A stretch of 64,000 nt of DNA, from the NCBI RefSeq assembly GCF_030348945.1, contig NZ_JAUCEN010000002.1:1302001-1366000 (forward strand), written 5' to 3'. The translations under genes were made by a program, and so were the position numbers. Source of the stretch: Peribacillus sp. ACCC06369. GTDB taxonomy: Bacteria > Bacillota > Bacilli > Bacillales > DSM-1321. Below the pieces are notes generated by a model. That model did not search any database and was not told the DNA's origin. It was given only the letters and a program-made list of their open reading frames with translations. Positions within the stretch are counted from its first letter, which is position 1, and each line of letters opens with the position of its first letter. Positions 35,370 to 48,844 of the stretch are shown here, piece by piece.

Positions 35370-36380
35370 TCAAACTTCAGCTACGGAATTTTGGATAATG
35401 TTTTCAGTCGGAATGATGGTATGCGGTATCTGATCTTGATTACCCTTTATCTTTGTAAAGAGAACCTGTATAGCTATATCCCCTAATTTTTTCACGGGGA
35501 TTTCTTTACAAGTCAAAGAGGGAGAGAGAAATGGATGTAAATTTGAATTACTGTAGCCTACGATGGATAGGTCTTTTGGTATGGAGATTCCATTTTCTGC
35601 TGCCATCTTATAAATACTCATCACCTTAAGATCATCAGTTGCAAAAACAGCTGTAGGCCGGTTATCTCCCAATAGTTGTTTTGCTGATTGATGTGCGGCA
35701 TCAATTGTATACCCACTGTTGATGATCCATTCATTCTTTAGTGGGAGCCCATTGTTCTTAATGCATGATTTATATCCTTCCAAGCGATCGATGGAAACAT
35801 GATAATCGAGTGGAGAATGTAAGCAGGCGATATCACGATGTCCTTTATCAATCAAATACTGCGTCAAATCATAACTGTCCTTGTAGTTATTCGTGTCAAC
35901 GGAAAAAACGTTTTTGTAATGACCTTCGACCTTTCCAATGACTACTATAGGGATATTAAATGGATCTATTTGTTGAAAGAAGTTCTCATTTGCTGGTGAA
36001 CTTAGCATTATGATCCCTTTTATTAATTTCTCTTTTATTTTCCTTATGCACTTTTGAAGTTCATCCTGACTGTTTTTCGCAGTCTGTAATATGACATCGA
36101 AGTTTTCGTCTTCAGCATTGGTTGATATTGTATGAATGATTTCTGAGAAAAATGGGTTATTTTCGGTAGTCTTGGCAGAACGCGATAGTACCATGATCGC
36201 ATCAAATCCGGAGGAAAGGGCCCGGGCTAATTTACTAGGTTGATAATTTAATTGTTCAATTGCTTTTAACACGCGCTCTCGCGATTCAACAGAGATGTTG
36301 CTTTGATTGTTTAGCACGCGTGATACGGTGGATTTTGAAACCATTGCAACACGGGCAATATCGTAGATAGTGTGTCCCAA
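35370..36380 (-). CDS. LacI/GalR family regulator (YcjW-like position)
   Basis: 336 aa, standard length. The N-terminal HTH (TIYDIARVAMVSKSTVSRVLNNQ) with hinge helix YQPSKLARALSSG is followed by a periplasmic-binding-like sensor domain. It is transcribed divergently from the ten-gene glucoside operon, whose upstream region carries LacI-type palindromes, so it very probably represses that operon and is released by a sugar. E. coli has a LacI regulator (YcjW) with the equivalent cluster. The ATG is preceded by AGGAGGAG. Confidence 0.93.
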   Translation of the reverse strand: MGHTIYDIARVAMVSKSTVSRVLNNQSNISVESRERVLKAIEQLNYQPSKLARALSSGFDAIMVLSRSAKTTENNPFFSEIIHTISTNAEDENFDVILQTAKNSQDELQKCIRKIKEKLIKGIIMLSSPANENFFQQIDPFNIPIVVIGKVEGHYKNVFSVDTNNYKDSYDLTQYLIDKGHRDIACLHSPLDYHVSIDRLEGYKSCIKNNGLPLKNEWIINSGYTIDAAHQSAKQLLGDNRPTAVFATDDLKVMSIYKMAAENGISIPKDLSIVGYSNSNLHPFLSPSLTCKEIPVKKLGDIAIQVLFTKIKGNQDQIPHTIIPTENIIQNSVAEV

Positions 36381-36517
36381 TAAAATTCTCCTCCTCCTAG
36401 TATGTTATCTGTATGATTATTTCCGAATATTAATAGGTTTTGTAAGTACCATTGAAAAAAATGAATCCTTACTGGTTGGTTTATTTTTTTATAGATTGAT
36501 TTTATTTATTAATAATA

Positions 36518-36531
36518 AGAGCGGTTTCATA
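36518..36531. promoter_or_regulatory. Third, weaker LacI-type half-site
   Basis: GAGCGGTTTCAT resembles the GAGCGGTTCCAC half of the operator at 36713. It lies between the regulator and the operon promoter. Confidence 0.35.
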
Positions 36532-36677
36532 GGGTAAATTATATTGATGAATCATGATAGTGGCAATAGAAATTTTAAAAGTAGTAGGCAATCTTGCAGA
36601 GAAAGCCATTTTTGGACCCCATATAAAATTAGGTAAACCCTCTAAAATAAAAGCGTGGTTCCCCATTTGGGTTCTTG

Positions 36678-36706
36678 TTGACAGAGAACGCTTACTGTAT
36701 TATATT
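36678..36706 (+). promoter_or_regulatory. SigA promoter of the glucoside operon
   Basis: Consensus TTGACA, 17-nt spacer, TATATT; start of transcription expected near 36713, inside the first operator. Confidence 0.7.
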
Positions 36707-36712
36707 TTGTTT

Positions 36713-36728
36713 GTGGGAGCGGTTCCAC
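36713..36728. promoter_or_regulatory. LacI-type operator 1
   Basis: GTGGGAGCGGTTCCAC, a 16-bp imperfect palindrome just after the -10 box, well placed for repression. Confidence 0.65.
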
Positions 36729-36755
36729 GGAAAATTATTTAACTATTAATTTATA

Positions 36756-36769
36756 TGGAAACGGTTCCA
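36756..36769. promoter_or_regulatory. LacI-type operator 2
   Basis: TGGAAACGGTTCCA, an imperfect palindrome sharing CGGTTCCA with operator 1, about 42 bp (four helical turns) from it centre to centre. Confidence 0.65.
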
Positions 36770-36783
36770 AGAAGGGGGCGTAT

Positions 36784-38466
36784 ATGGAATATATTAAACA
36801 GAGATTATCCGTAATTTATGGAGAATCGGATACACAAAAGATTTGGACTGACCTAAAAGGTAAACTTGTAAAAGCAAAAGAAACACCCTATAAAAAAAGA
36901 AAACAAAGATGGGATGAAAAAGATATTGTCTTGATTACGTATTCTGATCAATTTCAGGAGGAAGGCAAGCCTACACTGGCGACTTTTGAGAAGGTATTTG
37001 ATCGTTATTTAGCAGACAAATTTGAAATCGTTCATCTTCTGCCTTTTTATCCATATTCGTCGGATGATGGTTTTTCGGTAGTGGATTATAAGAAGGTCAA
37101 TCCAATTGCAGGAGATTGGGAAGATATTGAAAAACTATCGAAAAAAACGAGAATCATGTTTGATTATGTGTGCAACCATATCTCAGCAAAAAGTGATTGG
37201 TTTAAAGAGTACATAAACGGGAATCCTGAATATTCCGGCTTTTTCACGGAGATGGATCCCAATGTAGATTTAAGTTCAGTAACAAGACCAAGATCCACAC
37301 CTGTCCTCACCAGGTTTAAAATGGATGATGGATCGGAAAAGCATGTTTGGACGACGTTTAGTGAAGACCAAATTGATTTGAATTTCAAAAACCCGAAAGT
37401 TTTATTGAGAATGATTGATGTTCTATTATTTTATATTGAGCGAGGTGCGGAATATATTAGGCTAGATGCGGTAGGGTTCATGTGGAAAGAAGTCGGAGGG
37501 ACTTGTATCCACCTTGAAAAAACGCACCAAATCATAAAATTGTTCCGTGATATTGTTGAGGAAGTCGCTAAAGGAACTGTCATCATCACTGAAACGAATG
37601 TACCTCATAAAGATAATATTTCATATTTCGGCAATGGAAGCGATGAGGCACATATGGTTTATCAGTTCCCTTTACCGCCGCTTGTGCTTTACTCCATTAA
37701 TCGCGGAGATGGGAGCGCTCTCACAGAGTGGGCAAGAAATCTACAGCCAGCAGGGGATAATACAACATTCTTTAATTTCCTTGCTTCACACGACGGTATT
37801 GGATTGAATCCTATTCGCGGTATTATCTCAGAGGAAGAAATTCTTGATCTGGTAACGGACCTGAAAAGGGAAGGCGCAAAAGTTAACTACAAAAAAAATC
37901 CAGATGGCACGGAAAGTCCATATGAAATCAATGTGACGTACTTGGACGCGTTAAATAAACTGTCGGATGATGATGAGTTAAAGGTGAAAAGGTTTTTAGC
38001 GGCACACTCCATTTTATTATCACTTCAGGGAGTGCCAGCAGTTTATATCCAGAGTATATTAGGATCTAGTAATGATTATGAAGGTGTAGCTAAAACAGGA
38101 ATGAACCGTTCAATTAACCGCCAAAAGTATAGCTTGGATAAAATTGAAACAGAACTGGAAAAATCAGGTTCTTTACGAAGCAAGATATATAGAGAGTTAA
38201 CGAACATTATCAAAATTAGAAAAGCAGAAGCATTATTTCATCCAGATGTGCCTATGGAAATTTTGGATAAAGGTGAAAAATTATTTGCACTCAAAAGAGG
38301 AAATGATCCCCAAAATAGTCTATTCATTATTCACAATTTTGCAAATGAACCTGTAGATTGCCAGGCTTCAGGCAATTTTGTAAATGTAATAACGGGGGAT
38401 AAAATGGCTCTCGAAGGTACCATTACACTAAATCCCTATCAATTCCTTTGGTTGAAATCAATTTAA
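36784..38466 (+). CDS. GH13_18 sucrose phosphorylase-like enzyme (glucosylglycerate phosphorylase candidate, YcjM-like)
   Basis: 560 aa, the size of E. coli YcjM. Catalytic residues of GH13 are seen: nucleophile D228 in YIRLDAVGF, acid/base E270 in IITETNVPH, and D337 in LASHDGIG. Features HLLPFYPYSSDDGFSVVDY and YICNH-like FDYVCNHIS are typical of subfamily 18, which phosphorolyses sucrose, glucosylglycerol or glucosylglycerate to alpha-glucose 1-phosphate. The glycerate kinase in the same operon favours glucosylglycerate as substrate. No signal peptide, so it acts on imported sugar. GAAGGGGGCG precedes the ATG. Confidence 0.88.
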   Translation: MEYIKQRLSVIYGESDTQKIWTDLKGKLVKAKETPYKKRKQRWDEKDIVLITYSDQFQEEGKPTLATFEKVFDRYLADKFEIVHLLPFYPYSSDDGFSVVDYKKVNPIAGDWEDIEKLSKKTRIMFDYVCNHISAKSDWFKEYINGNPEYSGFFTEMDPNVDLSSVTRPRSTPVLTRFKMDDGSEKHVWTTFSEDQIDLNFKNPKVLLRMIDVLLFYIERGAEYIRLDAVGFMWKEVGGTCIHLEKTHQIIKLFRDIVEEVAKGTVIITETNVPHKDNISYFGNGSDEAHMVYQFPLPPLVLYSINRGDGSALTEWARNLQPAGDNTTFFNFLASHDGIGLNPIRGIISEEEILDLVTDLKREGAKVNYKKNPDGTESPYEINVTYLDALNKLSDDDELKVKRFLAAHSILLSLQGVPAVYIQSILGSSNDYEGVAKTGMNRSINRQKYSLDKIETELEKSGSLRSKIYRELTNIIKIRKAEALFHPDVPMEILDKGEKLFALKRGNDPQNSLFIIHNFANEPVDCQASGNFVNVITGDKMALEGTITLNPYQFLWLKSI

Positions 38467-38481
38467 CTAGGAGGCAGAAAG

Positions 38482-39783
38482 ATGAAATTCAAAATCCTAA
38501 TTTTGGTATTTATCTTAGTTTTAAGCATGGCTTTATCAGCATGTGGTGGGAACGAAAAGGCAGGAGAAGAGGCAAAAACAACAATTGAGTTCATGCATTC
38601 CTCTGTAGAGCAAGAGCGTCTAGCCGTCGTCAACAAGCTGGTAAAAAAGTTTGAGAAAGAAAATCCCACTATTAAAATCAAGCAAGTTCCAGTTCAAGAA
38701 GATTCATATAATACAAAAATTATCACTTTAGCTAGTGCTGGGAAACTTCCTGCGGTACTTGAAGTTGGGCAAGATTATGCCAAAGTCATGGATAAAGAAC
38801 AACTTATCGACAAAGAGGCAGTTAGTAATACCCTTGATAAAGCTGGTAAAAAAGACTTCTATGATGGTGCCTTAAAATTAGTAACACCAGAAGATGGGAA
38901 AGGGCACACTGGTATCCCTATCAGCGGCTGGGTTCAAGGCATTTGGTTTAATAAAGAAATGCTGGCATCCAAAGGATTCGAAGAGCCGAAAACCTGGGAT
39001 GATGTAATGTCGATCGCAAAGGCATTTACTGACAGCGGCAATAAAAAGTACGGTATTGGTTTGCCGACTGTTGAAGGCGGATTTTCAGAGCAGGCATTCT
39101 CACAATTTGCTCTATCAAACAATGCGAATGTTCTTGATGGCAAAGGGCAGTTGGATTTTAATAAAAAGGCGATGAAAGAAGCGCTAACTTATTATAAAGA
39201 ATTGGCCCAATATACGATGCCTGGTTCAAATGATACCACTGAGGTGAAAGATGCATTCATGAATGGCACAACACCAATGGCGGTATATTCAACTTATATC
39301 CTTCCTTCTGTATATGAAGAAGGCGATGCAGAAAATATAGGGTTTGCAATTCCGGAGCAAAAAACAAAAGCGGTGTTTGGAACGGTTTCTGCAATCACGA
39401 TCTCTTCTGGATTGGATGATCCTCAAAAAGAAGCAGCACAGGAATTCACAACGTTTTTGTCCAGGCCAGAAAATATGACCGAGTGGGTATTAATGTCACC
39501 AGGCGGTGCACAACCAGTTAGTAAAGCGGTTACAGAAAATGCTGCATATCAGGCAAATGAAGTAGTAAAGTCCTTCGGAGACTTATCAACCGAAATCGCC
39601 GCATCATTTAATGAAATCCAAGTGTTTGGTTTGGTCGGTGAAAAAAACTACGTGAAAATGGGAGTGATAACGAGTTCAGGCTCTATTTCCAAATTGGTAA
39701 ATGATATAACAGTCGGAGGAAAAAGCGTTGATATGGAAGTTAAAAACGCTGAACAGAAAATGAAAGATGTCTTAAAAAAATAA
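38482..39783 (+). CDS. Extracellular sugar-binding lipoprotein of ABC importer (YcjN-like)
   Basis: 433 aa. Signal peptide with lipobox LSAC (Cys21). Family 1 solute-binding fold: TIEFMHSSVEQERLAVVNKLVKKFEKENPTI near the N-terminus, and GWVQGIWFNKEMLASKGFEEPKTWDDV. It captures the oligosaccharide or glucoside at the cell surface for the two permeases that follow. The start is 15 nt after the phosphorylase stop, behind CTAGGAGG. Confidence 0.92.
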   Translation: MKFKILILVFILVLSMALSACGGNEKAGEEAKTTIEFMHSSVEQERLAVVNKLVKKFEKENPTIKIKQVPVQEDSYNTKIITLASAGKLPAVLEVGQDYAKVMDKEQLIDKEAVSNTLDKAGKKDFYDGALKLVTPEDGKGHTGIPISGWVQGIWFNKEMLASKGFEEPKTWDDVMSIAKAFTDSGNKKYGIGLPTVEGGFSEQAFSQFALSNNANVLDGKGQLDFNKKAMKEALTYYKELAQYTMPGSNDTTEVKDAFMNGTTPMAVYSTYILPSVYEEGDAENIGFAIPEQKTKAVFGTVSAITISSGLDDPQKEAAQEFTTFLSRPENMTEWVLMSPGGAQPVSKAVTENAAYQANEVVKSFGDLSTEIAASFNEIQVFGLVGEKNYVKMGVITSSGSISKLVNDITVGGKSVDMEVKNAEQKMKDVLKK

Positions 39784-39915
39784 GGCATAAGTGAAGGTGA
39801 TTAAGGCCCTCTATTTTTAGAAATAAGTCCAAGGTCTACGCCTAACAATAAAGTTAGAAAATCCCTTATTGGTTTGTACAATTTAAAAAATGTGATTATT
39901 TAGGGGGATCAAAAA

Positions 39916-40791
39916 ATGGAAAAAAGAGGGAAATCAGATTTGAAATTGGCAGTGGTGCTACTTTTCCCAAGTGTCTTTTTAGTGCTTTTGCTGGTTGCAT
40001 ACCCAATGATATCTAACATAAAGATCAGCTTTTTTGATCTTCCAATTAACCCAAGGCTAAGTGCAACCTTTGTCGGGTTACAAAATTATACAGAAATACT
40101 GACGGATATCGAATTTTTAAAATCATTGGGAACTACACTTTTATACATGATTTTAGCGGTGGCGGGGAGTACAGCCTTGGGATTGGTTGTGGCAATCTTT
40201 TTTAACCGTCCATTCAAATTCCGTAAGGCTGCCCGTTCATTAATTATTCTGTCCTATGTAACCCCTTCAATTTCTTTGGTTTTTGCTTGGAAATACATGT
40301 TCAATAATGGCTATGGTGTCGTAAATTATTTAGGAGTTGACGTGTTTCATTTATTTGAAAAGGCACCTCTCTGGTTTGATAATCCTGTTAGCAGCTTCAT
40401 TCTAGTCGTTCTTTTTGCAATATGGAGATACTTTCCTTATGCGTTCATCTCATTCCTGGCGATATTGCAGACAGTGGATAAAAGTTTATATGAGGCGGCA
40501 GAAATTGATGGGGCCTCCACCTGGGAAAAGTTCAAAAATGTTACCATCCCGGCAATTATGCCTGTGCTGATAACAATTATAACGCTACGTTCCATCTGGT
40601 TGTTCTATATGTTCACAGATGTATATCTGTTAACAAACAAAGTGAATATTATTGGGATTTACCTATATGAAACGGCATTTGCTTTTAATGATCTCGGTAA
40701 AGCCGCATCCATCTCTGTAATTCTTTTTATTATTCTTTCTATCGTTATAATAGCATCAAGAAAGCGGGTGAAATTAAATGGCAATGGCTAG
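39916..40791 (+). CDS. Sugar ABC transporter permease 1 (YcjO-like)
   Basis: 291 aa with six predicted helices and the EAA loop YEAAEIDGASTWEKFKNVTIPAIMPVL (about 193-219). A MalF-type permease without the large insert. It forms the pore together with the next gene product, whose ATG overlaps its last codons by 14 nt. The 132-nt gap from the binding-protein gene holds no terminator that I can see. Confidence 0.93.
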   Translation: MEKRGKSDLKLAVVLLFPSVFLVLLLVAYPMISNIKISFFDLPINPRLSATFVGLQNYTEILTDIEFLKSLGTTLLYMILAVAGSTALGLVVAIFFNRPFKFRKAARSLIILSYVTPSISLVFAWKYMFNNGYGVVNYLGVDVFHLFEKAPLWFDNPVSSFILVVLFAIWRYFPYAFISFLAILQTVDKSLYEAAEIDGASTWEKFKNVTIPAIMPVLITIITLRSIWLFYMFTDVYLLTNKVNIIGIYLYETAFAFNDLGKAASISVILFIILSIVIIASRKRVKLNGNG

Positions 40792-41632
40792 CAGTAAAAA
40801 GAATAAAGCAGCAAGAAAGATCGGGTTTTATCTTGGGCTGATCATCCTGTTGACTATTTCCCTATTCCCATTCTTCATCATGTTGATGACTTCCTTTAAA
40901 AGTTCGAAGGAAGCGGTTGCTACTAACCCATCCTTTTTTCCAGAGGATTGGACATTCCAGCATTATGTAGATATCTTTAATCCCGATATCTTCCCCTATT
41001 TATCTTATTTTAAGAATAGTTTAATAGTGGCCCTTACTGCAGCATTGCTGTCAGTTGCAATAGGCATTTTCGGGGCTTATGCCCTTTCGAAATTGAAGTT
41101 TATCGGAAAAACTACCATAAATGCTAGTTTTTATACGGTGTATATGTTGTCTGGGATTTTACTTGTCGTTCCTTTATTTAAGATCATCTCCGGACTTGGG
41201 TTATATGATACGAAAACAGCACTGATTATCACCATGATTGTTCAAACGCTTCCAACCTCGATATTCATGTTAAAAAGTTATTTTGACACTATCCCAGAGG
41301 ATCTGGAGGAAGCGGCGATGATTGATGGGTTGAACCGTGTGCAGATCATTTTCTATATTATCATTCCACTAGCCATATCAGGTATCATATCCGTTTTTGT
41401 ATATTCCTTTATGGTCGCTTGGAATGATTATCTATTTGCATCCATTTTCTTGTCGGATTCTGCAAACTTCACGCTTCCAATCGGCTTAAATGCATTGTTC
41501 AGTACACCTGACTATATATGGGGCAGAATGATGGCCGCTTCGCTTATAACGGCGCTGCCTGTAGTAGGGATGTACGCAATCTCCGAGCACTTCATAAAAG
41601 GAAACTTAACTGAAGGAGGAGTGAAAGGGTAA
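40778..41632 (+). CDS. Sugar ABC transporter permease 2 (YcjP-like)
   Basis: 284 aa, MalG-type. Helices follow a charged start (SSKKNKAARK), with the EAA loop LEEAAMIDGLNRVQIIFYIIIPLAI and a C-terminal HFIKGNLTEGGVKG. It pairs with the preceding permease. No ATP-binding gene is present in the operon (E. coli has ycjV), so a shared MsmX-type ATPase encoded elsewhere is expected. ATG 40784 is an alternative start. Confidence 0.93.
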   Translation: MAMASSKKNKAARKIGFYLGLIILLTISLFPFFIMLMTSFKSSKEAVATNPSFFPEDWTFQHYVDIFNPDIFPYLSYFKNSLIVALTAALLSVAIGIFGAYALSKLKFIGKTTINASFYTVYMLSGILLVVPLFKIISGLGLYDTKTALIITMIVQTLPTSIFMLKSYFDTIPEDLEEAAMIDGLNRVQIIFYIIIPLAISGIISVFVYSFMVAWNDYLFASIFLSDSANFTLPIGLNALFSTPDYIWGRMMAASLITALPVVGMYAISEHFIKGNLTEGGVKG

Positions 41633-41668
41633 ACGGAATACAAAATAAATGAGAGAAGGTAATTTATT

Positions 41669-42727
41669 ATGAAAAAACTAGTTGCGGTAAAACCAAGAGT
41701 AGCGGCATTGCTGGATTATGAAGAAAGTTCCATAAAGCCAAATGAGGTGAAAATAGAAGTGCAGTTTGCCTCCCCTAAACATGGCACGGAAGTTATAGAC
41801 TTCCGCGGGATGACTCCTTTTATGGATGAGAACTTCTCTGAAGAATGGCGCATGTTTATGCCACGGGAAGAAGGTACAACTAAAGGGATCGTATTTGGTG
41901 AATTCCAGCTTGGAAATATGGTTGTAGGTCAAATAATTGAAGTAGGAACCGAAGTAACGGGATACCAGGTGGGGGAGACTGTTTGTACATATGGACCAAT
42001 CAGGGAGACTGTTATTGTAAATGCAGTTGATAACCACCGTTTACGTAAAATGCCAGAGGGTTCAAAATGGCAAAATGCAGTTTGCTATGATCCTGCACAA
42101 TTTGCAATGAGCGGTGTACGCGATGCTAATGTTCGCGCAGGTGATTACGTAGTGGTGGTTGGGCTTGGAGCAATTGGACAGCTGGCAATCCAGTTGGCTA
42201 AAAAAGCAGGTGCGAGTATCGTTGTCGGCATTGACCCACTGAACCAGCGCCGAGATATTGCGCTTCGTAACGGGGCGGATGCTTGTTTTGATCCAACTGT
42301 TTGTGATGTAGGTTTTGAAGTGAAAAAGCTGACAAACAAAATAGGGGCAGATTCAATCATTGAAACAAGTGGCAATGCTGCAGCTCTTCAGGCGGCACTA
42401 AAGGGTATTGCATATGGCGGGACTATCTCATATGTAGCCTTTGGGAAGGCTTTCCCAGAAGGGTTGAATTTTGGCCGTGAAGCTCATTTCAATAATGCTA
42501 AGATTGTGTTCTCCCGCGCAGCAAGCGAACCTAATCCAGATTATCCACGTTGGAATAGAAAGCGGATAGAGGAGACCTGTTGGGAGTTGTTAATGAACGG
42601 GTATCTGAATTGTGAAGATATCATCGAACCAATCGTTACGTTTGAAAAGAGTGCAGAAGCGTACATGGAATATGTAGATCAGCATCCTGAACTAAGTATT
42701 AAAATGGGAATCGAATATAAAAAATAA
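41669..42727 (+). CDS. MDR-family zinc-type dehydrogenase (YcjQ-like)
   Basis: 352 aa. Medium-chain dehydrogenase layout: an N-terminal GroES-like part (PKHGTEVIDFRGMTPF, GNMVVGQIIEVGTEVTGYQVGETV) and a Rossmann domain with VVGLGAIGQLAIQLAKKAGAS (about 167-187). In the equivalent E. coli cluster YcjQ is reported to interconvert 3-keto-gulosides and gulosides. The position, directly before an epimerase and a Gfo/Idh/MocA dehydrogenase, matches E. coli order and supports the same role. Confidence 0.87.
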   Translation: MKKLVAVKPRVAALLDYEESSIKPNEVKIEVQFASPKHGTEVIDFRGMTPFMDENFSEEWRMFMPREEGTTKGIVFGEFQLGNMVVGQIIEVGTEVTGYQVGETVCTYGPIRETVIVNAVDNHRLRKMPEGSKWQNAVCYDPAQFAMSGVRDANVRAGDYVVVVGLGAIGQLAIQLAKKAGASIVVGIDPLNQRRDIALRNGADACFDPTVCDVGFEVKKLTNKIGADSIIETSGNAAALQAALKGIAYGGTISYVAFGKAFPEGLNFGREAHFNNAKIVFSRAASEPNPDYPRWNRKRIEETCWELLMNGYLNCEDIIEPIVTFEKSAEAYMEYVDQHPELSIKMGIEYKK

Positions 42728-42834
42728 TAATGAGTTTGTCCAGGTTGTAGCGGTTTCCTTACAATTTGAAAAAATGAAAATAGCGGATTTTAGTGAATTT
42801 TCCATTTTAATACATGTGTATGGGGGAGTTATTA

Positions 42835-43650
42835 ATGAAAATTGGTACACAGGACCAGGAGTTTTTCCCTAAGAATATCAGAGAAAAATTCCTTTTTTTA
42901 AAAGAGGCTGGCTTTGAAGGATTTGAAATTGATGGCAGAATGCTAGTTGAGCATCTAGACGAAATAAAAAATGCCATAGCGGAAACTGGAATTCCGGTTA
43001 CGACTGCCTGCGGAGGCTATACAGGCTGGATTGGTGACTTTGTCGAGGAACGCAGACTAAATGGATTAGTTGAAATCAAAAAAATCCTGGAAGCGTTACA
43101 AGAAGTAGGTGGGAAAGGGATCGTGGTTCCAGCTGCGTGGGGCATGTTCACTTACCGTCTGCCCCCAATGGTTTCTCCCAGAAGCCAGGAGGGTGATAAA
43201 GAGTCCATAAGCAATTCCCTGCTTTACCTGGACACAATCGCAAAAGAGACTGGGACGACAATTTTCTTAGAACCATTGAATCGCTATCAGGATCATATGA
43301 TCAACACATTAGCCGACGCAAGAAGTTATATAGAAGGAAATAATTTAAACAATGTAAAAATCATTGCAGACTTCTATCATATGAATATTGAAGAAGATGA
43401 TATTTCAGGGGCATTACATGCAAATCGGGACTTGATTGGGCACATTCACTTGGCAGATAATCATCGTTTTCAGCCGGGTAGCGGCTCACTGGATTTCAAG
43501 ACCCCTTTTAATCAACTAAAAGAAGATGGATATGATGGTTTTTTAACACTTGAATGCCGTGTAAGAGGAAATGATCCAAAAGCGGAATATATAAAAGCAT
43601 TGCGTCACCTCCAACAATCATTAGGCTTTAGAGGGGCTGAACAAGGATGA
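42835..43650 (+). CDS. Sugar isomerase/epimerase, TIM barrel (YcjR-like)
   Basis: 271 aa from ATG 42835 behind GGGGGAG; an upstream in-frame ATG (42814) lacks a site. AP-endonuclease-2-type barrel with metal ligands in IFLEPLNRYQDHM (Glu), IIADFYHMNIEE (Asp/His), HIHLADNHRFQPG and LTLECR. In E. coli YcjR acts as a C4-epimerase of 3-keto-glucosides/gulosides. It overlaps the next gene by 4 nt (ATGA). Confidence 0.88.
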   Translation: MKIGTQDQEFFPKNIREKFLFLKEAGFEGFEIDGRMLVEHLDEIKNAIAETGIPVTTACGGYTGWIGDFVEERRLNGLVEIKKILEALQEVGGKGIVVPAAWGMFTYRLPPMVSPRSQEGDKESISNSLLYLDTIAKETGTTIFLEPLNRYQDHMINTLADARSYIEGNNLNNVKIIADFYHMNIEEDDISGALHANRDLIGHIHLADNHRFQPGSGSLDFKTPFNQLKEDGYDGFLTLECRVRGNDPKAEYIKALRHLQQSLGFRGAEQG

Positions 43651-44681
43651 AGAAGAAAGTTGCGATAATTGGTGGAGGACAAACGGCAGAAAAAGTACAT
43701 GTTCCCTACTACCATACACGTGAAGAAGTAGAAATTGTTGCAGTTGTTGGTCCGAATATTGAGCGGACAAAAAACTTTGCGAAACGTAACGGAATAGCTC
43801 GATCATATACAGATGCAGATGAAATGTTTCAGGCAGAACAGCCTGACATCGTTAGTGTCTGCACGCCAAATAGATATCATTATGAAAATGTGATAAAGGC
43901 TTTGGAATATGGCTGTCATGTAATGTGCGAGAAACCACCCGCAATATCCTCTATAGAAGCAAAGCATATGCAAGAAGTTGCTAAAGAAAACAACCTTATT
44001 CTTGCATATAATTTTCATCACCGTTTTGCTGATGATGTTAATATTTTGCGAAAAAATGTGACAGAAGGTGTGCTGGGGGATATTTATGTCGTAAAAGCAA
44101 AAGCCCTGCGCCGAAGCGGTGTACCAGGGTGGGGGAATTTTATAAATAAAGAATCGCAAGGAGGGGGGCCTCTAATAGATTTAGGTGTCCACATGCTCGA
44201 TGCCGCCCTCTATGTGTTAGGCTATCCAAAAGTGGAGAAGGTAACAGCCAAGATGTTTCAAAAAATTGGCACAAAAAAATCACATGGATCTTTTGGGGAA
44301 TGGGATCCAAAAAAGTATGAAGTGGAAGATTCCCTTTTTGGTTTTATTGAGCTTGAAGGCGGTTGCTTGCTGCAACTCGAGACTTCATTTGCTTTAAATA
44401 TTAAAGAAACATCAATCATGAATGTGGAATTCTTTGGAGATGAGGCGGGAGCAACACTTTTTCCTGCCAATATTTATACTGATCAAAAAGGTGAATTAGT
44501 GACGATTTTGGACAGAAAGACAGCTGATCCGGATAGGGTTCAGAAAGGAATGGCTGCCTTTGTTGATAAATGTTTGGGCAAAGAAGTCATGGTGGCTAAT
44601 GGAAGAGAAGGTTACTTGATCGTGCAACTTATCGAAGCTCTCTATCAATCTGCTGAAAAAGGTGAAAGTGTAACCATATGA
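43647..44681 (+). CDS. Gfo/Idh/MocA family dehydrogenase (YcjS-like)
   Basis: 344 aa. Rossmann start KKVAIIGGGQTAEKVHVPYY, motif CEKPPAISSIEAKHMQ, and the catalytic-domain segment GGGPLIDLGVHMLDAALYVLG with the usual Asp/His pair. E. coli YcjS oxidises glucosides at C3 with NAD. Four-nt ATGA overlaps at both ends couple it to the epimerase and to the GH65 gene, so the three conversions are tightly co-translated. Confidence 0.9.
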   Translation: MKKKVAIIGGGQTAEKVHVPYYHTREEVEIVAVVGPNIERTKNFAKRNGIARSYTDADEMFQAEQPDIVSVCTPNRYHYENVIKALEYGCHVMCEKPPAISSIEAKHMQEVAKENNLILAYNFHHRFADDVNILRKNVTEGVLGDIYVVKAKALRRSGVPGWGNFINKESQGGGPLIDLGVHMLDAALYVLGYPKVEKVTAKMFQKIGTKKSHGSFGEWDPKKYEVEDSLFGFIELEGGCLLQLETSFALNIKETSIMNVEFFGDEAGATLFPANIYTDQKGELVTILDRKTADPDRVQKGMAAFVDKCLGKEVMVANGREGYLIVQLIEALYQSAEKGESVTI

Positions 44682-46900
44682 AAAAATTAGTGGAAAATGG
44701 ATTTGACCTGCGTTATATAAATAAATTTGCTAGTTTAATGACAATAGGGAATGGATACTGTGGTCTGCGTGCCACCCATGAAGAAAACTATGTAGATCAA
44801 ACACGAGGTATGTATGTAGCCGGTATTTATAATAAAGCTACGGCTAATGAACCGTCCGAATTAGTCAATTTGCCAGATATGATAGGAATGAATATTGAGG
44901 TTGATGGAGAAATTTTTTCCCTGCTAACGGGAGAAGTCCTTTCATATAAACGCCAGCTAAACTTTGAAACCGGGGAATTAAACCGTGAAATACTATGGAA
45001 AAGTAATTCTGGTGCACGTTTCCGTTTTACATTTCAACGTTTTGTAGCAAAAAATGACCTTCATGTTCTAGGTACAAAATTAACCGTCATTTCTTTGGAC
45101 AAAAACACACAAATAAAAATAGTAACTGGAATCAATGCGCAGCAAACTAATTTTGGAAAACAGCATCTTATTGAAGAAAAGGTTCGTGTAATTGAGGGGG
45201 ACTTGATACAGGGCATCTATAAAACTACCGAATCAGGGCATACGATTGCACTTGCGGCGTGTTGTATGTGTTCAGTCGAGAGTGATATATCTTATTCAGC
45301 AAAAAATAGGCAGCTGCTATCCACCATTAAGCAGGACCTTCTGCCTGATACCCCTTTTGTTCTAGAAAGAATCGGTGCCGTTTTTACGTCACTTGATGCA
45401 GATATTATGGGGAAAAGCCCAGAAGTAGCAAGTGTTGTGGCACTAAGAAAATACTCTTCATATGGATATGACGCTTTACTTGAAAAGTCAGCAGGGAAGT
45501 GGGCGCAATTTTGGAAGCAAAAGCGCATCAAAATATCGTCAACCAGGGATTTTGATCAGCTTGCTGTTGATTTTTCTTTATATCAAATAGAAGTTATGAC
45601 ACCTGCACATGATGAACGATTCAGTGTCGGAGCGAAAGGTTTGACGGGGGAAGGATATAAAGGTCATGTTTTTTGGGATACTGAAATGTTCATTTTACCC
45701 TTCCATCTGTTTACAGAACCGGAAAAAGCGAGAAAACTATTGCGATACCGCTATTTAAAACTAGAACAGGCAAAAGAGAAAGCTGCATCCAATGGCTTTG
45801 AAGGTGCTTTATTCCCTTGGGAAAGTGCTTTTACCGGAGAAGAAGAAACACCTGAATTTGCGGCCATTAATATTAAAACTGGAAAGCGGCAGAAAGTGGC
45901 GTCCGCTATAGCTGAACATCATATTGTGGCAGACATTGCTTATACAGTTGTGGAATATTACAAAAATACATTAGATGATGCTTTTATGAGAAAAGAAGGG
46001 CTTGAGCTGCTTAAAGAAACGAGCCGGTTTTGGATCAGCAGGGGTGTAGAAGAAAATGGACAGTTGGTTATCAAAGATGTCATCGGGCCGGATGAATACA
46101 CAGAACACGTTGATAATAATGCATTTACAAACTATATGGCTTGGTACAATGTTGATCAGGCACTATTTTTTATGGATAAGTATGGGGATTCTGATGGTTT
46201 GCTAATGGAACGAGGACAGGAATTTCTAAAGCGTTTATATTTACCTAAGGCTAATGATCATAAAATCATTCCCCAGGATGATACATTCCTCAGCAAGCCT
46301 GAAATCGACCTTTCCCGCTATAAAGAATCTCAGGGTAGTCAAGGGATTCTTATGGATTTTTCACGTCAAGAAGTAAATGAAATGCAAATTTTAAAACAAG
46401 CCGATGTCGTTATGCTGCTTTATTTATTTCCGGAGTTATTTCCAAGTGATGTAATCTCTGAAAATTTGCATTATTACGAGGAGCACACCATACACGATTC
46501 TTCACTGAGCAAAGCGATTCATGCCATAGTTGCAGCAAGAGCGGGTGAACTAGAAAAGTCATATGAATTTTTCCATGAAGCATCTTTAATCGACTTGGGC
46601 CCGAACCCACTATCTTCAGATGAAGGGCTTCATGCTGCATCCCTTGGTGCCATCTGGATGGCGACAATGTTCGGTTTTGCGAATATCTCGATCAAGGATC
46701 ATCGCTTAAGCTTAAAACCTAACATGCCATCTGACTGGTCGGAACTTGCCTTTCCATTAATTTTCCGAGGGTCGCGCTTACATATCATCCTTACACATAA
46801 GCAAGCCGTAATAACGAAAGTCTCGGGTGATGATGTACTAATAGAACTAAACGGTGCTGAATATTTGCTATCGAACAAAGTTGAAGTAAGCTTTCAATAG
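44678..46900 (+). CDS. GH65 disaccharide phosphorylase (kojibiose/maltose phosphorylase-like, YcjT-like)
   Basis: 740 aa, full length. Catalytic acid E473 lies in VIGPDEYTEHVDNNAFTNYMAW; KGLTGEGYKGHVFWDTEMFILPF lines the active site and the phosphate-binding HxSS-like HDSSLSKAIHA follows. GH65 inverting phosphorylases split alpha-glucobioses into beta-glucose 1-phosphate. The linkage cannot be fixed from sequence; E. coli YcjT is a kojibiose phosphorylase. The product fits the beta-phosphoglucomutase encoded downstream. Confidence 0.92.
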   Translation: MKKLVENGFDLRYINKFASLMTIGNGYCGLRATHEENYVDQTRGMYVAGIYNKATANEPSELVNLPDMIGMNIEVDGEIFSLLTGEVLSYKRQLNFETGELNREILWKSNSGARFRFTFQRFVAKNDLHVLGTKLTVISLDKNTQIKIVTGINAQQTNFGKQHLIEEKVRVIEGDLIQGIYKTTESGHTIALAACCMCSVESDISYSAKNRQLLSTIKQDLLPDTPFVLERIGAVFTSLDADIMGKSPEVASVVALRKYSSYGYDALLEKSAGKWAQFWKQKRIKISSTRDFDQLAVDFSLYQIEVMTPAHDERFSVGAKGLTGEGYKGHVFWDTEMFILPFHLFTEPEKARKLLRYRYLKLEQAKEKAASNGFEGALFPWESAFTGEEETPEFAAINIKTGKRQKVASAIAEHHIVADIAYTVVEYYKNTLDDAFMRKEGLELLKETSRFWISRGVEENGQLVIKDVIGPDEYTEHVDNNAFTNYMAWYNVDQALFFMDKYGDSDGLLMERGQEFLKRLYLPKANDHKIIPQDDTFLSKPEIDLSRYKESQGSQGILMDFSRQEVNEMQILKQADVVMLLYLFPELFPSDVISENLHYYEEHTIHDSSLSKAIHAIVAARAGELEKSYEFFHEASLIDLGPNPLSSDEGLHAASLGAIWMATMFGFANISIKDHRLSLKPNMPSDWSELAFPLIFRGSRLHIILTHKQAVITKVSGDDVLIELNGAEYLLSNKVEVSFQ

Positions 46901-47028
46901 CAGAAGAAATACTATCGCTCTTAAAAGCATTCGTACTTGCAATGTAATCATCTGAATTAGGATTTTACTTGCTTGCTTTCACGATTATTCATAAGAAGAA
47001 CTCATTAGGTAACATTCAGGAGGCAGAC

Positions 47029-48165
47029 ATGAAAATTGTAATTGCACCAGATTCATTTAAAGAGAGTTTACCATCAGACCAGGTCGCAAGAGCCATTCAA
47101 TCCGGTTTCATGTCCATTTTCCCGAAAGCGGAGTATCATTTGCTTCCAATTGCAGACGGCGGTGAAGGTACTGTTCAAGCTTTGGTATCCGCTCACAAGG
47201 GAAGGGTCGAAAGCATTTCTGTTACCGGTCCACTAGGATTGCCGGTTGAAGCGAAAATAGCTTTCTCGAATGATGGAGAGACAGCATTTATCGAAATGGC
47301 GGAAGCATGCGGATTGCATCTTGTTCCTATAGAGCAACGAAATCCCTTACATACTACTTCTTTTGGTGTGGGAGAGCTGATGATTCACGCTATGAACCAA
47401 GGTGCTTCCGAACTGATCATTGGAGTTGGCGGGAGTTCAACTAATGATGGAGGAGTAGGGATGGCTTCCGCTCTTGGTTATGAATTTTTTGATGGTGAAA
47501 GAAAAGCAGTAAAGGGTACCGGCAAGGATCTGTTTAATATTGTTTCTATGTCTGAAAGGAACCGTGACCGGAGATTAGATCTTGTTAATATTACGATAGC
47601 AGCAGATGTGGAAAATCCCTTAACGGGCCTTGACGGTGCAACCTATATTTATGGTCCACAAAAAGGGCTTCCTGAAGATATGCTAGATGAAATGGATAAA
47701 GCCATGGGCAGGTTTCATCAAATGGCAGGCAACTATTTAGGAATGGATGTCTCCTCCTTACCCGGGAGTGGTGCAGGTGGAGGGATGGGCGCCGGTCTGT
47801 TGTTATTCACAGGAGCTAAACTAAAAAAGGGCATTGAACTTATGATGGAGCATCTAAAGGTAAAAGAAATTTGTCAAGATGCAGATATAGTGATTGTGGG
47901 AGAAGGGAAAATAGACCATCAGACAATATATGGAAAAGCACCCTCGGGTGTAGCTAAATGCGCACCACCCAAAGCAAAAGTAATAGCGATTTGCGGAAGT
48001 GTGGGTGAGGGATCTGATGTTCTTTACGATCATGGGTTTGATGCCATATTCCCTACGATTCCTGCAATGCTGCCCATCGAAAACATTCTAGGTAGTGCAT
48101 TTAAAAATATAGAGAGAACATCTCGAAATGTTGCAGCACTTCTTCGAAAAGAGAGGGACGGTTAA
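47029..48165 (+). CDS. Glycerate kinase (GarK/GlxK family)
   Basis: 378 aa from ATG 47029, behind CAGGAGG; the in-frame codons upstream lack a site. The start KIVIAPDSFKESLPSDQVARAI, then IADGGEGTV, GVGGSSTNDGGVGMASALGY and GAGGGMGAGLLLF are diagnostic. It phosphorylates D-glycerate to 2-phosphoglycerate. It has no counterpart in the E. coli ycj cluster. Its presence between the GH65 and beta-PGM genes indicates that a glycerate moiety is released, which fits glucosylglycerate phosphorolysis by the first enzyme. Confidence 0.93.
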   Translation: MKIVIAPDSFKESLPSDQVARAIQSGFMSIFPKAEYHLLPIADGGEGTVQALVSAHKGRVESISVTGPLGLPVEAKIAFSNDGETAFIEMAEACGLHLVPIEQRNPLHTTSFGVGELMIHAMNQGASELIIGVGGSSTNDGGVGMASALGYEFFDGERKAVKGTGKDLFNIVSMSERNRDRRLDLVNITIAADVENPLTGLDGATYIYGPQKGLPEDMLDEMDKAMGRFHQMAGNYLGMDVSSLPGSGAGGGMGAGLLLFTGAKLKKGIELMMEHLKVKEICQDADIVIVGEGKIDHQTIYGKAPSGVAKCAPPKAKVIAICGSVGEGSDVLYDHGFDAIFPTIPAMLPIENILGSAFKNIERTSRNVAALLRKERDG

Positions 48166-48166
48166 A

Positions 48167-48844
48167 ATGGAAGAAAAATTTATTGATGCAGTAGTATTTG
48201 ACCTTGATGGTGTCATAACCGATTCAGCGCATTATCATTTCCTGGCTTGGCGAGAACTGGCTAGTGAAATAGGAATTAGTATTAACGAGGTCTTTAACGA
48301 GAGGCTAAAGGGGGTAAGCCGAATGGATTCCCTTGAGTTGATTTTGCAAGAAGGAAATCAGCAAAATGACTTCACTTTGAGCGAAAAAGAAAAAATGGCT
48401 GAAAAAAAGAACCTTCACTACTGTGAGTTTCTGAATGAATTGACGCCTCAAGATATACTGCCAGGGATTTTGGAGCTGATTACCAACATTAAATTAGAAG
48501 GAATTTCCATTGGACTTGCTTCTGTTTCCAGAAATGCAAGCACCGTATTAAAGGCACTACAGTTAGAGGATACTTTTGATTACGTTGTAGATGCTGCAAA
48601 AGTAAAAAAATCTAAACCTGATCCGGAAATTTTCTTGACGGCATGTAAACAACTTGATGCGAATCCAAAACGATCAATCGGAATTGAAGATGCTTCTGCA
48701 GGGATTGACTCCATCAAGGCAAGCGAAATGTTTGCTGTCGGTGTGGGAAATACTCTTAATAAAGCCGATTATCAGGTACATGCAACGAAAGAACTTCAAT
48801 GGGAAATGATAAAGTCTGAATATAAAAAATGGAGAGAAAGATAG
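48167..48844 (+). CDS. pgmB: Beta-phosphoglucomutase (YcjU/PgmB-like)
   Basis: 225 aa from ATG 48167, one nt after the glycerate kinase stop, with GAGAGGGACGG upstream. HAD-fold motif 1 is VVFDLDGVITDSAHYHFLAW (Asp nucleophile and acid/base), SVSRNA is motif 2, KVKKSKPDPEIF motif 3 and IGIEDASAGIDSIKA motif 4, all as in beta-PGM. It converts beta-glucose 1-phosphate from the GH65 enzyme to glucose 6-phosphate. Last gene of the operon. Confidence 0.93.
   Translation: MEEKFIDAVVFDLDGVITDSAHYHFLAWRELASEIGISINEVFNERLKGVSRMDSLELILQEGNQQNDFTLSEKEKMAEKKNLHYCEFLNELTPQDILPGILELITNIKLEGISIGLASVSRNASTVLKALQLEDTFDYVVDAAKVKKSKPDPEIFLTACKQLDANPKRSIGIEDASAGIDSIKASEMFAVGVGNTLNKADYQVHATKELQWEMIKSEYKKWRER

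Follow-up and report, generated by a model that had tools for sequence, protein, structure and literature searches.

The 64,000-nucleotide stretch analysed here (the window) is G000:C2:1302001-1366000 of the genome of Peribacillus sp. ACCC06369, which comprises 5.62 Mb in two contigs. Window positions 35370-48844 hold eleven genes: a divergent LacI gene on the minus strand, and ten plus-strand genes that encode, in order, a GH13_18 protein, a sugar-binding protein, two permeases, an MDR dehydrogenase, a TIM-barrel epimerase, a Gfo/Idh/MocA protein, a GH65 protein, a glycerate kinase and a beta-phosphoglucomutase (beta-PGM). A preliminary description of this DNA had given the same gene order and likened it to Escherichia coli ycjMNOPQRSTU. 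All eleven genes are present and of the families described, and nine of the ten plus-strand genes, along with the LacI gene, match their E. coli counterparts at 49.9-72.0% identity. The locus has M-N-O-P-Q-R-S-T-U in order together with a YcjW-type repressor, by which we define a ycj operon, and it is the Bacillota form of that operon, a kinase-bearing variant of a known system. Since the gene order is common to two phyla, it is no chance arrangement. Below, ycj genes are given by their letters (M-U, W) and the kinase by K; L-numbers denote loci compared, G-numbers genomes.

The repressor gene (35370..36380) encodes LacI and periplasmic-binding domains and is 59.5% identical to YcjW; this and the following identities are to E. 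coli MG1655, from blastp run one way. The GH13_18 gene lies at 36784..38466 (53.5% to YcjM) and is followed by genes for an ATP-binding cassette (ABC) sugar-binding protein with SBP_bac_1/8 domains (38482..39783; 50.2% to YcjN) and for the permeases related to YcjO (39916..40791; 71.3%) and YcjP (40778..41632; 70.6%). Relatives of YcjQ, YcjR and YcjS, which the preliminary description had also recognised, come next: the MDR dehydrogenase (41669..42727; 72.0%), whose E. coli counterpart is annotated as D-guloside 3-dehydrogenase, the epimerase (42835..43650, open frame from 42814; 66.2%; 3-dehydro-D-guloside 4-epimerase) and the Gfo/Idh/MocA dehydrogenase (43647..44681; 58.7%; D-glucoside 3-dehydrogenase). 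The GH65 inverting phosphorylase (44678..46900; 49.9% to the kojibiose phosphorylase YcjT), the class-I glycerate kinase (47029..48165, open frame from 46969) and the beta-PGM (48167..48844, open frame from 48128; 50.2% to YcjU) complete the plus-strand set. The permease genes overlap by 14 bases, and the epimerase/Gfo and Gfo/GH65 pairs by 4 bases each. The kinase probably starts at ATG 47029, with AGGAGG just upstream, rather than at TTG 46969; the beta-PGM probably starts at 48167, one base past the kinase stop, and the epimerase at 42835, the first position of its YcjR alignment.

The E. coli K-12 cluster, ycjMNOPQRSTUV-ompG-ycjW, has the same M-U order, the same type of repressor and operator-like sites ahead of the first gene. 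The window differs in three ways. First, it has a glycerate kinase between T and U, which by blastp has no match among the E. coli ycj-region proteins. Second, its LacI gene is divergent and at the front, whereas ycjW is at the far end. Third, no counterpart of the ycjV-type ATPase or of the ompG porin was found among the frames of at least 120 residues listed at 35370-48844. The E. coli ycjV gene is flagged as a pseudogene in the MG1655 annotation, and two MalK-type ATPases are encoded elsewhere in the host genome.

The GH13_18 protein is predicted to be a 2-O-glucosylglycerate phosphorylase (GGaP). In the portion of PMC7178133 available to us, GGaP is told from sucrose phosphorylase by (T/S)ETN at strand beta-5 and by a loop-A Glu where sucrose phosphorylase has Gln. 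The window protein has TETN at residues 269-272 and loop-A Glu381 within SPYEI, in place of the sucrose phosphorylase motif N(L/V)D(I/L/V)YQ. In an alignment of 143 proteins, TETN and the loop-A Glu occur in 135/135 GGaP-like proteins and in 0/8 sucrose-phosphorylase-like ones, all eight of which are from Bacillales and have PE(I/V)H and a loop-A Gln. A quick maximum-likelihood tree of these 143 proteins separates the 135 from the eight with a Shimodaira-Hasegawa-like approximate likelihood ratio test (SH-aLRT) support of 100, and the window protein and YcjM fall among the 135. The outgroup consists of those eight uncharacterised proteins, and YcjM is the sole characterised GGaP included (those of M. 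silvanus and S. thermophila are absent). Two of the ten sucrose-phosphorylase-like matches have an in-frame stop and were omitted; eight loci (L139-L146) largely repeat named loci, six of them forming identical pairs in the alignment, and so are not independent. The score against the sucrose phosphorylase model TIGR03852 is 227.5 bits, below the cut-off of 334.4. Motif, tree and score together rule out a sucrose phosphorylase, and the assignment made in the preliminary description is supported.

The best PDB match of the GH65 protein is the kojibiose phosphorylase 3wiq (399.7 bits). Using the numbering of that structure and CsKP positions taken from the accessible part of PMC8537180, we find the kojibiose phosphorylase signature EEAPxx (64, 392, 394 and 402, with 416 and 585 variable) at window residues E61, E382, A384 and P392. 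In the acceptor triad W391, E392 and T417, the Trp and Glu are kept and the Thr is a Ser, as in YcjT, in 55/55 ycj-type proteins and in 4/5 proteins from kojibiose-phosphorylase operons; the comparison took frames above 600 residues, which leaves out pieces in L028. With CsKP positions 64, 391, 392, 394 and 402 kept, the protein appears to be of the kojibiose-phosphorylase type, as previously described. Its loop 3 has R404 and Q405 (window numbers; 53/55 ycj-type proteins each) and A408 (50/55), residues found in 0/5 of the kojibiose-phosphorylase-operon proteins. We considered these three residues as a glycerate-binding signature and rejected the idea: the GGaP-adjoining L057, L088 and L131 retain the loop of kojibiose phosphorylases, so the loop-3 residues mark a clade, not a substrate.

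The kojibiose-phosphorylase-type operons (L132-L136) resemble the window in having a GH65 protein with E64, W391, E392 and P402 and an ABC importer, with a beta-PGM in 4/5, but no GGaP, QRS or glycerate kinase was found in them. Their loop 3 has A or Q and then T at 404-405 and W at 408, where ycj-type proteins mostly have R-Q and A. A second GH65 protein, 54-55% identical to the reference, is encoded in six Gottfriedia-group genomes (L127-L130, L137, L138), with no ycj gene recognised nearby; it has K, A and mostly Q in place of E64, E392 and P402.

The kinase scores 454.7 bits against the class-I glycerate kinase family PF02595 (cut-off 23.3) and 458.4 bits against TIGR00045 (cut-off 168.45), and is 47.7% identical to E. 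coli GarK. It is thus a member of the glycerate kinase family. It falls below the cut-offs of the equivalog models GlxK (381.5 of 686 bits) and GarK (369.6 of 625 bits), and the 2-phosphoglycerate that the preliminary description named as product is unsupported as put.

To follow the kinase across ycj operons, we searched named genomes with GGaP and kept the best 80 of 186 relatives as loci; the closest of these are from Peribacillus muralis (86%) and P. simplex (84%). The loci extend some 10 kb beyond GGaP, which would hide any kinase lying further downstream, and L057 ends shortly past U. GH65 accompanies GGaP in 43 of the 80 loci, and 28 of the 43 have a kinase: 27/29 assessable ycj-type loci in Bacillota (a thirtieth, L024, is cut by a contig end), 1/13 in Enterobacterales (L062, Limnobaculum) and 0/1 in Fusobacteriota (L057). 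Listeria fleischmannii L028 is counted as having GH65 and kinase although both are in pieces; its record has each gene split over two frames (L028:17735-21042). The preliminary description had called the kinase an addition and asked for a survey of its conservation in Bacillaceae copies. The conservation holds, and the addition does not: the kinase is the rule in Bacillota and part of a published GGaP-kinase partnership (PMC7178133). The same description had set the operon in the context of spore-formers, which is no help because Listeria and Enterococcus have the same operon.

Other ycj-type loci carry kinases of different descent. In L087 (G102; L087:6594-18491) the order is N-O-P-Q-R-S-T-U-M-K, with the GGaP and kinase pair appended at the end. 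Its N-U proteins share 62-83% identity with the reference ycj proteins, its GGaP 46% and its kinase 38%. The GGaP falls in a GH38-associated clade (27 rows, SH-aLRT 100). The kinase is nested among GH38-cluster kinases (12 rows, 100/100); the 36 ycj-type kinases form a single clade (100/100) that does not include it (the tree took frames above 300 residues, without L025 and the pieces in L028). In L088 (G221), GGaP and kinase are adjacent and both of other lineages, the kinase placement being unsure because of its long branch (1.13). The mixed lineages of L087 indicate at least two separate gains of a glycerate kinase by ycj-type operons. This repeated gain is new here and is our strongest evidence that the pathway yields glycerate; together with the conservation of the kinase, it rules out a chance insertion. 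A kinase near GGaP is already in print (PMC7178133), as are ycj-like clusters in Listeria, Enterococcus and Bacillus, known through YcjN, with the kinase unmentioned in the portion of that paper available (PMC11543891). The Bacillota form adds a clue that has no counterpart in the E. coli cluster: glycerate looks worth a dedicated kinase.

The partnership extends through the order to which the host belongs. YcjQ (E to 1e-70) occurs in 12 of 328 genomes, all 12 with GGaP and GH65 in the same cluster, and the kinase is present in 12/12 of these ycj-type operons (the window and 11 loci). GGaP itself (E to 1e-100) gave 56 matches, 7 of which were not fetched, and 48 loci besides the window were analysed. 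By company, 11 of these have GH65 (11 with kinase), 25 have GH38 (20 with kinase), 11 have a gene for a CdaR-like (sugar-diacid) regulator (11 with kinase) and one has none of these three (no kinase). The kinase is thus found at 42/48 loci. It is the labelled gene nearest to GGaP in 30, and present at a greater remove in 12, namely nine window-type operons, L089, L092 and L094. A published review, in its accessible part, describes GGaP genes as "frequently accompanied" by a glycerate kinase (PMC7178133). The window resembles those loci in TETN, the loop-A Glu and a kinase close by, but its pair sits inside an ABC-QRST operon and its kinase belongs to a separate clade.

The 25 GH38-type loci (L098, L100-L105, L107-L123, L126; for example L098:5991-14691) combine GGaP with GH38, a MngA-like phosphotransferase system (PTS) and an RpiR regulator. 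Against the mannosylglycerate hydrolase model (cut-off 1138) the GH38 protein of L098 reaches 766.8 bits, and against the 2-O-mannosylglycerate model (cut-off 763) the PTS of L098 reaches 490.1 bits. Blastp to these two proteins served to label the remaining GH38 and PTS genes; all are relatives, not certified equivalogs. These loci are possibly operons for mannosylglucosylglycerate breakdown. They share with the window the same GGaP and kinase families side by side, but have PTS and GH38 where the window has an ABC importer, QRS and GH65. A search of the host genome, run without a positive control, found no GH38 gene. At L118 a mannose-6-phosphate isomerase gene adjoins GGaP, and no kinase was found.

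The kinase might act on a substrate other than glycerate, or the GH13_18 protein might have drifted to another acceptor. The modest identity of the kinase to GarK, its scores below both equivalog cut-offs and its own clade in the family would fit this. Against it, the kinase is far over the family cut-offs, other branches of the kinase family accompany GGaP in L087, L088 and the GH38 and CdaR clusters, and the GGaP signature residues are invariant. We consider such a change of substrate highly improbable.

We think it likely that this operon serves to import and break down an alpha-glucoside with D-glycerate at its end. In the absence of its sugar effector, the LacI repressor would keep the promoter blocked. 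Import would be the task of the binding protein and the two permeases, powered by an ATPase of MalK/MsmX type encoded elsewhere in the genome. Where needed, the YcjQ, YcjR and YcjS relatives would convert a gulosyl (or galacto-configured) residue to a glucosyl one via 3-keto intermediates. By phosphorolysis, GH65 would release the alpha-1,2-linked outer glucose as beta-glucose 1-phosphate, and the beta-PGM would convert this to glucose 6-phosphate; GGaP would then phosphorolyse glucosylglycerate, and the kinase would phosphorylate the glycerate released. We infer the natural substrate, the activities in this organism, the repression, the import and, above all, the action of GH65 and then GGaP on one molecule. 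The preliminary description had proposed a closed route from glucosylglycerate, with YcjQRS widening it to gulosides. As a whole that route holds as far as sequence can tell, apart from the added kinase, the 2-phosphoglycerate and the spore-former framing discussed above. In place of the widening, we prefer a reading in which QRS and GH65 would act on the outer sugar of a molecule whose inner part is glucosylglycerate.

Several observations weigh against a catabolic operon of this kind. The kinase is missing from the Bacillota loci L010 and L054, also by tblastn within the locus stretches, and its absence from 2/29 Bacillota and 12/13 Enterobacterales loci makes it dispensable within the operon; it is missing at 5/25 GH38-type GGaP loci as well. 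The host genome encodes a second intact glycerate kinase (G000:C2:1377507-1378625). Five kojibiose-phosphorylase-type operons exist without GGaP or QRS, so the window GH65 could serve free kojibiose. Finally, GGaP-type enzymes are reversible, so the direction of the reaction rests on context.

That reversibility would also suit an operon for the synthesis or recycling of glucosylglycerate, a compatible solute, in which GGaP works in the synthetic direction. A review, in the part available, suggests that GGaP might regulate intracellular glucosylglycerate levels (PMC7178133), and a mannosylglucosylglycerate-synthase-like gene lies beside GGaP in some Bacillales (4/48 loci). The importer, the repressor, the beta-PGM and the glycerate-draining kinase point instead to breakdown. 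Against the mannosylglucosylglycerate synthase model the host genome gave no match, and against one model for a GpgS-type glucosyl-phosphoglycerate synthase its best score was 27 bits, below the cut-off of 262, which makes breakdown more likely than synthesis. We regard the synthetic direction as very unlikely.

A stronger alternative is an operon with two substrates, in which GH65 and beta-PGM serve kojibiose or other alpha-1,2-glucobioses, GGaP and the kinase serve glucosylglycerate, and the phosphorylases share an importer and a repressor and never act on one molecule. A table in PMC8950772 lists YcjT as a kojibiose phosphorylase and YcjM as a characterised glucosylglycerate phosphorylase, and the window GH65 retains the kojibiose-phosphorylase positions. 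In the accessible part of PMC6599011, 1 mM kojibiose releases E. coli YcjW from its operator in vitro, but kojibiose as sole carbon source in minimal medium gives no growth of E. coli. In rich defined medium with kojibiose E. coli grew with a defect, and the authors mention low solubility; their suspected inducer is "some derivative of kojibiose" (PMC6599011). Kojibiosyl-glycerate would be one such derivative. A YcjN thermal-shift screen that included kojibiose gave no ligand, with binding not excluded by its authors (PMC11543891, in the part available). The lack of growth, the suspected inducer and the YcjN screen speak against two substrates, as does the presence of both phosphorylase families in 12/12 YcjQ-bearing clusters of the order and in the divergent L131. 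We see two substrates as quite possible, if short of probable, and favour the breakdown of a single alpha-glucoside ending in D-glycerate.

What that glucoside might be is suggested by genes found beside GGaP. A mannosylglucosylglycerate-synthase-like protein (388.9-445.6 bits; cut-off 640) is encoded at 4/48 GGaP loci of the order, and a reverse search (E to 1e-60) found such proteins in 4/276 genomes, all four at those GGaP loci. Across our loci it shares a locus with GGaP in L089, L092, L094, L095, L131, L149 and L150. In L131 and L150 the gene lies among importer genes, an unusual setting for a synthase. L131 (G599) is a divergent cluster with, in a row, GH4, GGaP, synthase-like (423.1 bits), P, O, N, Q, S, R, LacI and GH65; its Q-T proteins are 31-46% identical to the reference, no kinase was found, and in the order of G599 YcjQ occurs in 1/38 genomes, G599 itself. 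L150 (G527) reads W-N-O-P-synthase-GGaP, with no QRST found. The family of the synthase-like proteins resembles GT4, for which phosphorylases are known (PMC8950772, accessible part); these proteins, too, could be phosphorylases.

The last gene of the L088 cluster is of the GH36 melibiase type (L088:16813-18993), and the GH4 gene at the end of L131 (L131:1563-2903) is over the cut-off of an alpha-galactosidase subfamily model. Two divergent QRST-GGaP clusters thus each have an alpha-galactosidase-type gene, of different families. A 3-keto galactoside is the same compound as a 3-keto guloside, and a galacto-configured outer sugar would therefore fit YcjQRS.

We tentatively propose, as an idea that may well prove wrong, that the ycj operon, that of E. 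coli included, is a pathway for a hexosyl-alpha-1,2-glucosyl-alpha-1,2-glycerate (kojibiosyl-glycerate or a gulosyl/galactosyl form). Such a compound would be a relative of mannosylglucosylglycerate, a known osmolyte (PMC3694870, accessible part). GGaP and the kinase would form a core with interchangeable outer-sugar modules: GH38 and PTS for mannosyl, YcjQRS and GH65 for gulosyl or glucosyl residues. Our literature search found no report of kojibiosyl- or gulosyl-glucosylglycerate. In the portions available, GH65, GGaP and a hexosyl-glucosylglycerate substrate are not joined in PMC7178133, PMC8537180, PMC8950772, PMC6599011, PMC11543891, PMC3694870, PMC3899277 or PMC11397096; Franceus 2017, Mukherjee 2018 and the YcjR structure paper lay outside this scope and could hold such a proposal. 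The E. coli ycj enzymes have been studied singly; if true, the proposal would supply their operon with a natural substrate. The kinase and the synthase-like link narrow the candidates to a short list of compounds open to synthesis and assay.

A promoter-like site, TTGACA-17-TATATT (36678..36706, plus strand), precedes the operon with 11/12 consensus matches; by consensus match only, 45 such sites were seen in the scanned stretch against 42.9 expected. The palindrome TGGGAGCGGTTCCA (36714..36727, plus strand) lies between this site and the first gene, as an E. coli YcjW site lies before ycjM, and a second such palindrome, TGGAAACGGTTCCA, is at 36756..36769 on the same strand. The two are the sole exact matches to TGGRANCGGTTCCA in the 64 kb. 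With two mismatches allowed there are 8 matches against 2.67 expected, a number reached in 2/100 shuffles (palindromes counted on both strands). These near-palindromes are candidate operator sites for the LacI protein. E. coli has YcjW sites before ycjM and between ycjT and ycjU (PMC6599011, accessible part). In locus L006, GGGACCGCTACC occurs at both of these places, with an equal number of matches in 17/100 shuffles. We rejected one operator common to all relatives: the pattern is near the GGaP start in 15/32 Bacillota loci and absent in 17/32. Around the GGaP start it is absent in L014-L020 and L030 of the Gottfriedia group, with only 231 bases available in L016.

Some minor observations remain. 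The frame adjoining the second host kinase looks by eye as if it may be of CdaR type, and a third host glycerate kinase gene (G000:C2:2737097-2738157) was matched only as three pieces in different frames. Of two M-only Enterobacterales loci examined, one has Tex (L056) and the other FeoB (L086) upstream of GGaP. The GGaP tree places L060, recorded as Martelella alba, with Sodalis-type Enterobacterales, and the name of this record may be wrong. Upstream of LacI in Fictibacillus terranigra L012, a second YcjN-like gene (70%) lies near weakly Q-/R-like genes (25-27%), perhaps a related second operon.

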